Part shown: positions 7,064 to 27,633 of the stretch, piece by piece
Position numbering within the stretch: position 1 is the first letter of the stretch
Layout: each line of letters starts with the position of its first letter
Assembly: GCA_014360645.1 (NCBI GenBank)
Contig: JACIXD010000002.1
Coordinates: 1-64,000 of the forward strand
Direction: 5' to 3'
Length of the DNA: 64,000 nt
Origin: Actinomycetota bacterium
GTDB taxonomy: Bacteria > Actinomycetota > Geothermincolia > Geothermincolales > RBG-13-55-18
Program-made: the position numbers and the translations under genes
Notes under the pieces: model-generated
Seen by the model: the letters and a program-made list of their open reading frames with translations, nothing else
What the model was told of the DNA's origin: nothing
The model's database searches: none

Positions 7064-7120
7064 TGGGGTCAGCCCCGGACATGGGACATTTTGTATGTGC
7101 GGGGGTAGGCGTATGTGCGG

Positions 7121-7718
7121 GCGTATGCGTGCCAGGCCTGGACCTCGCTGCGCTCCGTCCAGGCGCTGGACACCGTAGCGCCTGCGGCGCTATCGCTTTC
7201 GCGATGCAGGCTCTCGCGCGATAAAGGATGACACCCCACCTAGCCAGGCGCTGGACACCGTAGCGCCTGCGGCGCTATCGCTTTCGCGATGCAGGCTCTC
7301 GCGCGATAAAGGATGACACCCCACCTAGCCAGGCGCTGGACACCGTAGCGCCTGCGGCGCTATCGCTTACGCGATGCAGGCTCTCGCGCGATAAAGGATG
7401 ACACCCCACCTAGCCAGGCGCTGGACACCGTAGCGCCTGCGGCGCTATCGCTTACGCGATGCAGGCTCTCGCGCGATAAAGGATGACACCCCACCTAGCC
7501 AGGCACTGGACACCGTAGCGCCTGCGGCGCTATCGCTTTCGCGATGCAGGCTCTCGCGCGATAAAGGATGACACCCCACCTAGCCAGGCACTGGACACCG
7601 TAGCGCCTGCGGCGCTATCGCTTTCGCGATGCAGGCTCTCGCGCGATAAAGGATGACACCCCACCTAGCCAGGCACTGGACACCGTAGCGCCTGCGGCGC
7701 TATCGCTTTCGCGATGCA
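7121..7718 (+). repeat. Tandem array of an 85-bp unit, about 6.5 copies, with a 40-bp leader
   Basis: Units begin at 7161, 7246, 7331, 7416, 7501, 7586 and 7671 (the last truncated), an exact 85-bp period with only a few base differences. Each unit holds two adjacent hairpins. The first is TAGCGCC-TGC-GGCGCTA. The second has stem ATCGC/GCGAT, with the loop varying between TTTC and TTAC while the stem is constant. A wider pairing GCCTGC/GCAGGC is also possible. The period is not a multiple of three, so the array is non-coding. A 40-bp leader (7121-7160) is identical to that of the array at 25713. It lies between convergent genes. Confidence 0.95.
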
Positions 7719-7735: not shown

Positions 7736-9472
7736 CTATGTTTCGCAGTAGGGGGTGTCGCAGCCCTGGAGCCAGAGGTCCACGATCATGCTGAAGAGGA
7801 CCGGCACGTCAAGGTTGGCCTCGCGGTCCACCTGGGCGTCGATCACCGTCATCACTTCCGAGGCCGCCGCCTCCTCCAGTGCCGGCCTGATCTCGTCCGG
7901 GCTCTCCACCCGGATGCCGCGCGCTCCCATGGACTCCGCCAGCTTGTCCAGGCGCGTCTCCCCGAACTCCACCCCGCAGTATCTCTGTCCGAAGGCGGCA
8001 TGCTGCGCCCCCTTGATCATCCCCCAAGCGCTGTCGTTGGAGACGATGTCGATGATGGGCAGCTTGAGGCGTACGGCGGTCTCGATGTCCTGGCAGTTGA
8101 TCATGAACGAGCCGTCCCCGTGGAGCACGTAAACGGGGCGTTCGGGGTTGGCCATCTTGGCGCCCATGGCGAAGGGCAGCCCCACTCCCAGCTGCCCCGT
8201 GCCCTCGGCGAAGAGATAGGAACGGGGATGGTAGACCCTGCCGGCTATGTTCACCCACAGCGCGGTGTTGCCGCCGTCCATGACCATGATGCCGTCGCGC
8301 CCCAGGAACTCCACCGCCTCGCTGATGAGGCGCAGGGGATGGATGGGCCTGGCGTCCGAGCGAGCCATCTCCTCATATGCCTTGAGGGCCTGCTCCTCCA
8401 TCTCGCGGTATGCCGCCAGAAAGTCCCTCCCCTCTACCGGGGGGGTTGACTCCTTGACCCTGGCGATGATCTGGCGCAGGACCATCCTGGCGTCCCCCAC
8501 GATGCCCAGGTCGAACTGGCGGTTGAGCCCGATCACCCGGGGGTCGATGTCCACGTAGATGAACTTCTGCACCGCGGGGTCGCCCCACATATTCGGCTTG
8601 CCCCAGAAATCGAGCTCGGACATGGTGCATCCGACGTTCAGCACCACATCGGAGGAGGATTCCGCCATGATGGCCCCCATGCCCTTGGGCAGGAAGAGCA
8701 AGGGGTGGTCCTCGGGCAGGGTACCGCGCCCGGAAACGCTGGTGGTGACGGGAATCTGGAGATATTCCGCAAGCTCCCTCACCTCGTCCCAGGCCTTGGA
8801 GCGCATCACTCCCCCTCCGGCGTGGATGAGGGGCTTCTCCGCCGCCAACAGCATCTCCACCGCCCGGTCCACCGCCTCCGGGTCACCGCAGGGCTTCACC
8901 ATGGTGCGGTACCTCTCGGGAGGCAGGAACGTGTCCTCGTCCACCTCGCCGTTGGCGAAGAGCACGTCCACGTTGATGTCGAGGTGTACCGGGCCCGGCC
9001 GCCCGCTGACCGCTTCGCGGAAGGCCCACTGCACCATCTCCGCGATGCGGTCGAAGCGGTTCACCAGAGCGTTCCACTTGGTTATGGGTCGGAAGAGGTT
9101 TATCTGGTCCAGCTGCTGCTGCGACCCCTTGAAGGGATAGGAGCGGTTGGAATGGATCTGCGGGGTGATGACCACCATGGGTATGCTGTCGTTGTAGGCG
9201 GTGTAAACGCCGGTGACCAGGTTAACCGCCCCGGGACCCACGGTGCCCGTGCACACCCCCACCATGTCCGAGGTGCGCGAGACCGCGTCCGCCATGTGCG
9301 CCGCCACCGCCTCGTGGTGGGTCATGACGAACTCCATGCCGTTGGGGCGCCCCACCCGGGCGATGGCGTCCGTGAAAGTGCACAACTGCCCTCCCGGGAT
9401 GCCGAAGACCCAGCGCACTCCCTCCTTGAGCAGAGCCCTGACCAGCACTTCGCCGCCGTTCATCAATGCCAT
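7736..9472 (-). CDS. Thiamine-diphosphate-dependent enzyme, acetolactate synthase-like
   Basis: A 578-residue protein with the three-domain layout of the acetolactate synthase/benzoylformate decarboxylase group. The pyrimidine domain carries the activating glutamate E54 in THHEAVAA. The C-terminal domain has the cofactor motif GDGS (about 452-455) with the partner asparagine about 27 residues later (VSNDSAWG). It may make acetolactate or decarboxylate another 2-oxo acid. No small regulatory subunit (ilvN) or other ilv genes are adjacent, so a catabolic or specialised enzyme is as likely as IlvB. A GGAGGAGGGG site precedes the ATG. Confidence 0.82.
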   Translation of the reverse strand: MALMNGGEVLVRALLKEGVRWVFGIPGGQLCTFTDAIARVGRPNGMEFVMTHHEAVAAHMADAVSRTSDMVGVCTGTVGPGAVNLVTGVYTAYNDSIPMVVITPQIHSNRSYPFKGSQQQLDQINLFRPITKWNALVNRFDRIAEMVQWAFREAVSGRPGPVHLDINVDVLFANGEVDEDTFLPPERYRTMVKPCGDPEAVDRAVEMLLAAEKPLIHAGGGVMRSKAWDEVRELAEYLQIPVTTSVSGRGTLPEDHPLLFLPKGMGAIMAESSSDVVLNVGCTMSELDFWGKPNMWGDPAVQKFIYVDIDPRVIGLNRQFDLGIVGDARMVLRQIIARVKESTPPVEGRDFLAAYREMEEQALKAYEEMARSDARPIHPLRLISEAVEFLGRDGIMVMDGGNTALWVNIAGRVYHPRSYLFAEGTGQLGVGLPFAMGAKMANPERPVYVLHGDGSFMINCQDIETAVRLKLPIIDIVSNDSAWGMIKGAQHAAFGQRYCGVEFGETRLDKLAESMGARGIRVESPDEIRPALEEAAASEVMTVIDAQVDREANLDVPVLFSMIVDLWLQGCDTPYCET

Positions 9473-17210: not shown

Positions 17211-17461
17211 GCCCCTGCCCTCGACGCCGGCCCAGCAGCGACAATCCCCTTCGTGGGCCGAAACCGGGTCGTGCTGGATCCCCGGTCAGGAGTCAAGTCC
17301 TTCCACGTGAGGCCCGCGGCATCCCCCCTTTTCTTTTCCGTCTAATCCGCAAACGGAGCGCTCGTCCCTATACAGCCTCGGGCCGCGGTGCTGTACCGCC
17401 GGGCTCCGGCGTCCGGCGCTCTCTGTGTTTTCCGCTTCTACCCTCTCCACACGTGACTCGA
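17211..17461. other. Intergenic region without a supported gene
   Basis: GC-rich sequence after the small coupled gene, leading into the duplicated block. Overlapping open frames on both strands have no ribosome sites and extend into the duplication, so I treat them as chance. Confidence 0.5.
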
Positions 17462-17759
17462 GGCCGCTCCGGCCAGGCGGGCCGGCGGTGGGCCCCACCC
17501 CCCCGCGTGGGAACCGGCGAGGCGGACCGCGCCCGTCTGATGGTAAGAACCGTGCCCACTGGCGAGAAGGGCTAAAACAGGCGGCGCGCCCTTCCCATAT
17601 GGCTGCTTCTCGAGTATCGGGGCCGCTCCGGCCAGGCGGGCCGGCGGTGGGCCCCACCCCCCCGCGTGGGAACCGGCGAGGCGGACCGCGCCCGTCTGAT
17701 GGTAAGAACCTTGCCCACTGGCGAGAACGGCTAAAACAGGCGGCGCGCCCTTCCGATAT
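17462..17759. repeat. Near-identical direct duplication of a 139-bp non-coding block
   Basis: Bases 17462-17600 and 17621-17759 are the same sequence with only a handful of mismatches (for example CGTGCCC/CTTGCCC and CCCATAT/CCGATAT), offset by exactly 159 bp. The block starts GGCCGCTCCGGCC and contains short inverted GC-rich segments (GGTGGGCCCCACC). The second copy ends 38 bases before the next gene. It is not related to the 85-bp arrays. Confidence 0.9.
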
Positions 17760-24903: not shown

Positions 24904-25689
24904 TCATGTGTTCGCTCTTCCCTCCCCGCGACGCCGGACAACATCCTCCGCCCGCCGGTGTTCCGGAACAGCGGCCTGGACCTCGAAGGTCAGCTCCAGC
25001 GCTGTGCTCGGTTCGGTGAAACCCGCGTGTTCACTCCAGTAGAGGACCGGCCAGCCTTCCGCCAGTGCGATCTTTCTCAGTCCCCTCTGGGGGTTCACCG
25101 CCACCGGATGGCCCACCGCCCTCAGCAGCGGGAGGTCGGGGACGCTGTCGGAGTAGAAATAACAGTCCGCGAGATCGACCCCCCGCGACGCCGCGTATCC
25201 CCTGGCCAGATCGGCCTTGCCCTCCCCGTAGGGAAGGGGGCGCTCGAGCTCGTCGGTGAGGTAACCGTCCCTCACCGGGGCCTTGGCGGCTATCTTGTCG
25301 TCGGCTCCCAGCTGTACCCTCACCTTCTCGCACATGTATTCGCCCGCGGCGGTGGCGATGACCGTGAGGTGACCGCGCTCCCGGTGCTCGGCTATGCGTT
25401 CCGCCCCCTCCCGGAAGAGGCGGGGCATCACGCATGCCTCGTAGGCCTCGTCGAGCATGCGCACCAGCTCCTCTATGGGGTATTTCCCGCACTCCCGGAA
25501 AGTCCAGCGGTACACCTCTTCGCGCGGAAGGCGGTTAAGGCGGTAGAGGGTAGTGAACTTCACCGCCTTCCAGATGGCCTCCAGCCCCAGGAGCCTCTTC
25601 TTCACCATGTACAGGACCACCAGGTTTCCGTTGGCGCCGTCCAGCAGGGTGTGGTCGAGGTCGAAAAAGGCTATGGGTCGAGACTGCAT
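24904..25689 (-). CDS. HAD-superfamily (subfamily IB) phosphatase
   Basis: 261 residues. Motif I is FFDLDHTLLDG with nucleophile D10 and acid/base D12; motif II is the serine/threonine in VIATAAG; motif III/IV is YFYSDSVPDLPLL with the metal-binding aspartates. This layout matches SerB-like and CicA-like phosphatases acting on small phosphomonoesters, with a helical cap of type C1. ATG 25689 follows AAAAAAAGGAG. The frame stays open upstream through the repeat array to 26379, but that extension is repeat sequence, not protein. Confidence 0.88.
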   Translation of the reverse strand: MQSRPIAFFDLDHTLLDGANGNLVVLYMVKKRLLGLEAIWKAVKFTTLYRLNRLPREEVYRWTFRECGKYPIEELVRMLDEAYEACVMPRLFREGAERIAEHRERGHLTVIATAAGEYMCEKVRVQLGADDKIAAKAPVRDGYLTDELERPLPYGEGKADLARGYAASRGVDLADCYFYSDSVPDLPLLRAVGHPVAVNPQRGLRKIALAEGWPVLYWSEHAGFTEPSTALELTFEVQAAVPEHRRAEDVVRRRGEGRANT

Positions 25690-25712
25690 GTGATCTCCTT
25701 TTTTTCTAGAGA

Positions 25713-26052
25713 GCGTATGCGTGCCAGGCCTGGACCTCGCTGCGCTCCGTCCAGGCACTGGACACCGCAGCGCCTGCGGCGCTGTCGCTTCCGCGATGCA
25801 GGCTTTCGATGGAGAAATGATAACACCCGGCCCCCCGTGCACCGGCACCGTAGCGCCTCCAGCGCTGTCGCTTCCGCGATGCAGGCTTTCGACTGAGAAA
25901 TGATAACGCCCTGCCCCCGTGCACCGGCACCGTAGCGCCTGCGGCGCTGTCGCTTCCGCGATGCAGGCTTTCGATGGAGAAATGATAACACCCGGCCCCC
26001 CGTGCACCGGCACCGTAGCGCCTCCAGCGCTATCGCTTCCGCGATGCAGGCT
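25713..26052 (+). repeat. Second tandem array, four units of 82-83 bp, same leader as the array at 7121
   Basis: The first 40 bases (25713-25752) are identical to the leader at 7121-7160. Repeat cores begin at about 25763, 25846, 25928 and 26011. Each has two hairpins matching those of the first array. The closing pair of hairpin 1 is C-G in the first unit (CAGCGCC/GGCGCTG) but T-A in array 1, a compensatory change. Two units replace the loop region with CTCCA. Hairpin 2 keeps its stem with a TTCC loop. A degenerate fifth copy may lie near 26093. It separates the alcohol dehydrogenase stop from the HAD gene start. Confidence 0.93.
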
Positions 26053-26150
26053 GCCGTTCAGCACCGGATGACGCCGCGCCCCCATTTCGGTCGGCACCGC
26101 TGCGCATCCCCGCGATCGTCTTCCTGCAAAGGGACTGCCGTCAATTTCCA

Positions 26151-27368
26151 TCATATGGTGAACACTATCTTGATCGCTTTCTCGCGGCCCTTGTTGAGGG
26201 CGGTATCCAGAGCCTTCGGCCACTCGTCCAGGGTGAAGCGGTGGGTGATGAGATGCGAGAGGTCGGCCCTGCCCTCCGCGAACAGCTTCAGGGCCAGCTC
26301 GAAGGCATGCATCCTCTCCCCCTCCACCTCCTCGCTCCCGTAGACGTAGATACCCCGGAGGGTGAGCTCCTTGAGCCATACCGGCGTCCAGTCCACCTTC
26401 CTGACGGGGCTGATGCCCAGTAGGTTGTAGGTGCCCGCGTGGGCGAGCACGCGCAGCGAGAAATCCAGGGTCTCCGTGGACCCCACGGCGTCGAACACCC
26501 GGTCCACTCCGCCGATGAGGATGGGCTTGGCCATGAGGGGGGTGTACATCTTAGCTCCCGTCAGCTCCGCCACGCGCCGGTAGGTCTTCTTTCCCCCGGG
26601 CCTGATCACTTCCTCCACCCCCATGCCCTTCGCCACCTCGCTGTGGAAGGGGTCCAACTCCACGCCCAGGATGCGCGCGTCCGGGTGGAGGGCCTTGACG
26701 GATGCTATAGTGCACAGCCCCATAACGCCGAGCCCGATCACCATCACCGTCTCTCCGGGACGCATGCGGTTCCCAACCACCATGTGCAGGGCTACCGCGA
26801 AGGGCTCCGTGAGCACCGCGTTCTCGTCGCTCACGTTCTCCGGCACCCTGTAGAGCTGGTCGGCATGGGCCACCCCCATCTCGCTGATGAATCCGGGTAC
26901 CCCCGCGGTGTTGCCCACGAACATCCCCGCCGCCAGCTCTCCCTCCGTCCAGTTCTCGCATATACCGTGGCTCCCGTCCGCGCATACGCGGCAGGGAGGG
27001 TCGATGCGCCGCTGCCGGCATCCCAGGGCGGGCATCACCGTCACCCTGTCCCCCACCTCGAATCCCTCGACCTCCTCCCCTTTCTCCGCTATCTCGCCGC
27101 ACACCTCATGTCCGATGACGAAGGGGAAGGAGGCGAAGGGCTGCAGGGTCAGGCTCTCGTGGCACTTCACGATGCTGAGGTCGCTGCCGCAGAAACCCGC
27201 GAGCTTCGGCCTCACCTTGACCCAGTCGGGTCCCGGCAGCCCCGGCTCCTCCACCTCCCGCACCCGGGCTGGGGCCAGCCGCGAGGTGAGGACCTCGGGC
27301 CGGCGGTCACAGAGAGCCCCCGTGAGCAGGTATTTCGGTATGCTGTACTCGAAGGTGAGCGCCTTCAT
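26151..27368 (-). CDS. Zinc-dependent alcohol dehydrogenase (medium-chain dehydrogenase/reductase)
   Basis: 405 residues from ATG 27368 (GGGGGAGAGG upstream). The catalytic zinc ligands are the cysteine in GFCGSD, the histidine-glutamate in IGHEVCGE, and a glutamate in LTEPFAVALH. The structural-zinc lobe is present but altered: four cysteines in CRQRRIDPPCRVCADGSHGIC, with longer first spacing. The nucleotide fold is VIGLGVMGLCTI. It oxidises an alcohol or polyol using NAD(P). The group resembles threonine/sorbitol/glucose dehydrogenases more than ethanol dehydrogenase. Its neighbours are lipid genes, but the substrate is not evident. Confidence 0.87.
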   Translation of the reverse strand: MKALTFEYSIPKYLLTGALCDRRPEVLTSRLAPARVREVEEPGLPGPDWVKVRPKLAGFCGSDLSIVKCHESLTLQPFASFPFVIGHEVCGEIAEKGEEVEGFEVGDRVTVMPALGCRQRRIDPPCRVCADGSHGICENWTEGELAAGMFVGNTAGVPGFISEMGVAHADQLYRVPENVSDENAVLTEPFAVALHMVVGNRMRPGETVMVIGLGVMGLCTIASVKALHPDARILGVELDPFHSEVAKGMGVEEVIRPGGKKTYRRVAELTGAKMYTPLMAKPILIGGVDRVFDAVGSTETLDFSLRVLAHAGTYNLLGISPVRKVDWTPVWLKELTLRGIYVYGSEEVEGERMHAFELALKLFAEGRADLSHLITHRFTLDEWPKALDTALNKGREKAIKIVFTI

Positions 27369-27633
27369 CCTCTCCCCCTTTCCGCCCCGCACGCCGACGG
27401 CATCACTCGCCTCGGACCTCGCCTTCGACGCACGGGACAACCCTCACCGGATCCCGTTCCGGCGATCTCCCGTCTCCCCGTCCATCCTCGACGCCTTGAC
27501 GGCCATCTCACCCTGCACGGCGCCGGGCTAGGAGCGGGGAAGACTCCCCGTCCGTCTTCCGCTCTCGATCCCGCCGGCCCGGCTCCGTAATCCGAACGTA
27601 TCCGCCGTCGACTCCCGCCGCGAGACGGTCTCC

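Follow-up and report, generated by a model that had tools for sequence, protein, structure and literature searches.

The two tandem arrays in the window, a 64,000-nt stretch at the start of contig C2 of a 3.38-Mb, 34-contig actinomycetote genome, are members of a dispersed, hairpin-forming family whose elements span roughly 95–140 bases and occur in dozens of copies. Copies are spread over two genera in types specific to each genome, their stems covary, they lie between genes in a preferred orientation close to stop codons, and orthologous junctions free of the element exist. The explanation that we favor, and consider probable, is a mobile, dispersed non-coding repeat of about 95–140 bp, similar to REP and BOX, that would serve as a structured 3'-UTR RNA module.

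Anatomy, fold, and strand of the element

The array at 25713–26052 (array 2) comprises four units. Their CACCG anchors, located by direct reading and by script, lie at 25763, 25846, 25928, and 26011; the spacings of 83, 82, and 83 bp agree with the 82–83-bp periodicity given in a preliminary description of this DNA, whose example of a diverged spacer in these units is also correct. Array 1, near 7121, has seven units spaced exactly 85 bp apart. TRF scores are 503–568 for array 2 and 1085 for array 1. Array sequence recurs at 14 loci of the genome, far beyond chance (49 blastn matches within the genome). The features of the two regions are:

7065–7092, plus strand: terminal repeat GGGGTCAGCCCCGGACATGGGACATTTT of a Y1-transposase element, adjoining array 1
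7122–7216, minus strand: complete element at the outer end of array 1 (109.2 bits)
7217–7718, minus strand: six further 85-bp units of array 1
24904–25689, minus strand: HAD-family hydrolase gene (PF12710) after array 2, its start 23 bp beyond the array
25713–25756, unstranded: 'leader', consisting of a P1 strand and the arm A hairpin GCCTGGAC...GTCCAGGC; identical to 7121–7164
25714–25808, functional strand probably minus: complete element of array 2 (closing stem P1 and arms A, B, and C); 107.9 model bits, 95 bp, model positions 1–98
25768–25785 (ends approximate), unstranded: hairpin of arm B in unit 1, closed by the compensated pair C-G
25786–25797 (ends approximate), minus strand: hairpin of arm C in unit 1; its minus-strand loop is GGAA (GNRA)
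25830–26052, minus strand: three truncated units of array 2 that lack most of arm A (GTGCACCGGCAC remnant), with diverged linkers between them
26151–27440, minus strand: zinc alcohol dehydrogenase gene (PF08240, PF00107), its stop codon 98 bp before array 2 in the sense direction

The array 2 unit at 25912–25973 is matched by the covariance model with 43.5 bits. Between the last unit of array 1 and the stop codon of a thiamine-diphosphate enzyme gene (7736–9472) lie 17 bp.

In the orientation in which the window is read, the complete element consists of a P1 strand, arm A, arm B, arm C, and the second P1 strand. Arm A has the form GTGCCAG GCCTGGAC ... GTCCAGGC CTGG-CAC, with a variable inner stem and loop; arm B is xxGCGCC ... 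GGCGCxx and arm C is TCGC TTNC GCGA. Copy L035 from a relative folds exactly into this three-arm shape, with z about -5 whether treated as RNA or as DNA. For the window copies the gain over shuffles is only modest (z about -2 to -2.5), and their arms B and C can pair in an alternative way.

Units 1 to 4 of array 2 close the short stem with C-G, T-G, T-G, and T-A, respectively, whereas seven of seven units of array 1 close it with T-A, a change that had been read as the mark of a real stem. Covariation persists as copies are added. The covariance model gathered 148 copies, 142 of them distinct, and over the distinct copies this pair is UA in 74, CG in 46, UG in 18, GC in 1, and unpaired in 1. 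Two-sided changes occur in 24 of 32 pairs (13.2 in shuffles), 86.6% of cells are paired (80.7% in shuffles, 27–44% when partners are slid), and the covariation score is 0.151 as compared with 0.072. None of 500 shuffles reaches the observed value on any of these measures, counts that are not probabilities given an alignment fitted to the structure and related, non-independent copies. Arm B, placed by its flanking anchors only and independently of the model alignment, scores 0.771 against 0.694, with a maximum of 0.738 over 2000 partner shuffles. Because the stems covary across 142 distinct copies, we regard the stem as real.

Two features distinguish the strands. On the minus strand the loop of arm C is GAAA in 76 copies, GTAA in 47, GGAA in 12, and GCAA and GTGA in one each, i.e., GNRA in 137 of 148. 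At the three inner positions of P1, 61.7% of cells pair on the strand read and 90.0% on the opposite strand, where 131 A-C cells become G-U. The outer P1 pairs have poor support on both strands (55–62%), and stems outside P1 do not inform on the strand because their G-T and A-C counts are about equal. From the GNRA loop and the closing-stem wobble pairs we infer that the active molecule is probably an RNA of the opposite strand. The preliminary description had allowed a stem in either RNA or DNA; structured RNA is favored, although on the strand opposite to the one it read.

Placement and dispersal

Genes were called with a simple home-made caller that was trained on these loci and then refined. 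No called gene is overlapped by any of 101 element clusters. Both neighbors are known for 93 loci: 52 lie between co-directional genes to which the element, in the orientation read, is antisense, 14 between co-directional genes in the reverse arrangement, 20 between convergent genes, and 7 between divergent genes, so that 86 of the 93 fall between co-directional or convergent genes. A stop codon is found within 35 bp of the sense-5' end at 60 of these loci. In the main class of 52, the median distance from the stop codon to the sense-5' end is 12 bp, with 90% within 35 bp, as compared with ~50 bp under random placement (0 of 10,000 simulations); at convergent loci it is 20 bp versus 49 bp (p 0.001). 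The 14 reverse co-directional and 7 divergent loci are exceptions to the rule. By orientation and stop-codon distance, the element is therefore probably sense-oriented 3'-UTR sequence in most cases. A link to one gene function was rejected, as the neighbors are a mixture of metabolic and ribosomal genes.

At loci of genomes G012 and G014 (e.g., L129, L177, L190–L193) a GAACCCCATCCGTCTGAGCAAYCCC stretch recurs just upstream of the sense-5' end, and the TGA within it appears to be the stop codon of the host gene at some of them.

At E up to 0.01 the model finds 35 matches in the genome of the window, 24 and 13 in two congeners, and 38, 41, and 40 in three species that belong to a second genus of the same family; when E is limited to 1e-4, the same six genomes, representing two genera, yield 16, 22, 9, 31, 32, and 25. 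Outside the family, 0 of 16 genomes of the class gave a covariance model match, and a wide distribution of the element was discarded since there are almost no copies elsewhere in the class. Among the other MAGs in the species-level collection, an exact 24-base core is confined to two, Actinomycetota SURF_21 and Ch49. A search of the window against Rfam release 15 matched only a tRNA, and at four element loci searched at E up to 1 the sole hit was to a snoRNA, at chance level and outside the elements. Contigs of the related MAGs G001, G002, G007, and G014 (e.g., L158, L162, L167, L180) often stop a few hundred bases from an element; because so many end there, copy numbers in these four are probably underestimated.

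The sequence types of the element are genome-specific, and near-identical recent copies are present. For 92 of 129 copies the nearest relative at another locus belongs to the same genome, as compared with 22 expected, a resemblance that may reflect ongoing dispersal or gene conversion. The test for vertical descent of copies at shared sites gave a mixed answer: orthologous copies have a mean rank at the 61st percentile, high in some pairs and low in others, and are only sometimes mutual best matches. Ancestral retention and re-insertion are not separable on this mixed similarity.

Junctions with and without the element provide a second view of its turnover. The alcohol dehydrogenase–HAD junction of congener G002 is about 20 bp long and element-free, and G005 and G013 have no element at the acyltransferase/thiamine-enzyme junction. 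G012 carries an element of its own at the alcohol dehydrogenase–HAD junction, and the junctions in G007 and G014 contain apparent element remnants. The element-free junctions belong to different species or genera, at a divergence too high for exact ends or target duplications to be read.

These data could also describe purely selfish mobile DNA, in which the hairpins would act as signals in replication or in transposition of single-stranded DNA, and the location at 3' ends would reflect only where insertions are least harmful; we regard this as a possible but rather unlikely alternative. The genome-specific types, the near-identical recent copies, and the element-free junctions agree with it, as does the terminal repeat of a Y1 transposase that adjoins six arrays of the genome, and similar placement of BOX, RUP, and IS elements has been read as tolerance (PMC3049150). 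Tolerance alone, however, leaves unexplained the 52:14 orientation bias, the 12-bp distance to the stop codon, the GNRA loop, and the strand-specific wobble in P1. Y1-type transposase genes, moreover, are present in most of the family's genomes, whether or not these carry the element. Among 27 Y1_Tnp loci of the family and order, none is flanked by a credible copy (a single chance-level match, E 0.73), and mobilization by the Y1 transposases of the group was rejected on this ground despite the terminal repeat that abuts six arrays.

The terminal repeat itself, GGGGTCAGCCCCGGACATGGGACATTTT, has 87 copies in the genome of the window (up to 3 mismatches), several as close, MITE-like inverted pairs and six adjoining arrays. 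Inverted GGGGTCAGCCCCGGACATGGGACATTTT also bounds a Y1-type transposase gene (L051, C1:131093–132339). The repeat fits the GGGGWSAS class of terminal repeats, which belong to TIR-type transposases (PMC3733652), and GGGGTCAGCCCCGGACATGGGACATTTT and the array perhaps spread as one composite. A second Y1-type transposase gene of this genome (L050, C16:15926) is surrounded by another repeat, GGGGTCAKATCTTCATTCTTCGATC, in direct and inverted copies.

Possible functions and array growth

For the 3'-UTR module that we favor, a sequence of steps can be proposed. The element would insert, or be retained, just past stop codons; read in the same sense as the gene before it, it would present a short closing stem and three hairpins (GNRA-capped arm C, arm B, and arm A, which is long and variable). 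Co-transcribed within the 3' UTR and folded as RNA, it may slow 3'-to-5' decay or offer a processing or attenuation site between the genes of an operon. New copies would be made by an enzyme acting in trans, through transposition or recombination.

Copies in a ribosomal protein operon bear on these functions. An element lies between rplA and rplJ in G002 and G007, two genomes of different genera, and another follows rplL in G001, G002, and G007, with rpoB as the next gene in G002; gene identities rest on Pfam for G002 and G007 and, for G001, on similarity to these. The rplA-rplJ and rplL-rpoB positions suggest attenuation, processing, or an effect on stability, and they speak against a full terminator. 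That the element is a terminator cassette, stopping the preceding gene's transcript at its hairpins, is improbable for further reasons. Its position directly after stop codons and its strong GC-rich stems would suit such a role, but the flanks past the sense 3' end are devoid of a U-tract, the reason for rejecting a classic terminator, and no terminator-like site was found in 25500–26300. Within the rplA-rplJ-rplL-rpoB string of G002, full termination would silence rpoB unless it had its own promoter.

A more far-reaching form of the 3'-UTR reading, which we put forward with low confidence, is a mobile yet domesticated RNA module: orthologous copies in operons (after rplA and rplL) would be selected as portable attenuation or stability elements, with arm A altered, genome by genome, to keep pace with a trans-acting enzyme or RNA-binding protein by which it is recognized. 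The preferred orientation, the 12-bp distance to the stop codon, and the GNRA-capped, covarying fold make the element a test case for whether bacterial interspersed repeats are junk or portable 3'-UTR regulators, a question made testable by the existence of orthologous junctions with and without it.

The outer ends of the arrays had been interpreted differently, with the identity of a 40-bp leader taken to indicate its copying or a role for it. By script comparison the identity extends slightly further, over the 44 bp of 25713–25756 and 7121–7164, and many homologs exist beyond these two loci. A leader copied separately, with its own role ahead of the unit array, is nevertheless already contradicted by the anatomy of the element and most improbable: two arrays with diverged units do share 44 identical bases, but the same segment lies within every unit of other arrays, both in this genome (C4, C15, C1 near 91 kb) and in numerous arrays of relatives, where it pairs with the unit body as arm A, and the excess identity is marginal. 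The first units of both arrays (95 bp) have five differences, all outside the leader, yet under uniform divergence this would occur by chance in about 5% of cases ((52/95)^5), and leader identity alone is weak evidence. A change within the 'leader' is present in two sister arrays, at C5 and at C2 near 205 kb. Special copying is not needed. The leader is one part of the full element, a part that the window arrays retain once, at the outer end.

Head-to-tail arrays would expand by slippage or unequal recombination. Those of the window may have grown from a partial unit, in which case arm A would survive at the outer end only. A simple deletion between two CCAGG repeats was considered for the truncated units and rejected, as it fits the right half of the array 1 junction and not the left half.

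Relation to known repeats

REP and BIME sequences (GTAG and CGTC superfamilies) are extragenic palindromes that lie for the most part downstream of genes, where the neighboring ORFs are co-directional or convergent; they often occur in clusters and are thought to act as RNA (PMC3733652). A REP is a single palindrome of 20–40 bp that bears a GTAG or CGTC tag (PMC3733652), and REPs are often arranged in opposite orientations. The element resembles them in its placement downstream of coding regions, between co-directional or convergent genes (86 of 93 loci; 7 divergent). At 95–140 bp, with three arms and a closing stem, it is larger than a REP, and its arrays run head to tail. No constant GTAG or CGTC tag was seen at either end; the GTAG before arm B in the genome of the window is mostly paired and is replaced by GTTG, GCTG, or GTCG in other copies. 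GTAG-type REPs flank a RAYT gene, whereas the element flanks no transposase gene at the 27 Y1_Tnp loci. Among the defining REP features, placement is shared and size, tag, and transposase link are not.

BOX of Streptococcus pneumoniae is modular, has a variable number of an internal tandem module, folds as a multi-hairpin RNA, and is co-transcribed with its neighbors (PMC3049150). The modularity, the tandem module, and the multi-hairpin fold are common to both, a likeness by description. They differ in that BOX is built as boxA-(boxB)n-boxC and the present arrays repeat the whole element or part of it. ERIC (RU-1) elements of enterobacteria are 127-bp intergenic small mobile sequences (PMC2759123), which in one orientation can alter the stability of host mRNA (PMC3049150). 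ERIC has different hosts from the element and is likened to it by description only. The MIRUs of Mycobacterium tuberculosis, an actinobacterium, are intergenic head-to-tail tandem repeats; by description only they share with the element these traits and the actinobacterial host, and to our knowledge they are not described as multi-arm palindromes.

With REP and BOX as its closest known counterparts, we file the element as a new form of small interspersed structured repeat that is probably mobile and probably folds in mRNA and tunes it. Elsewhere in the window, 17458–17759 holds a 159-bp tandem duplication (1.9 copies, 97% match) that is unrelated to the hairpin element.
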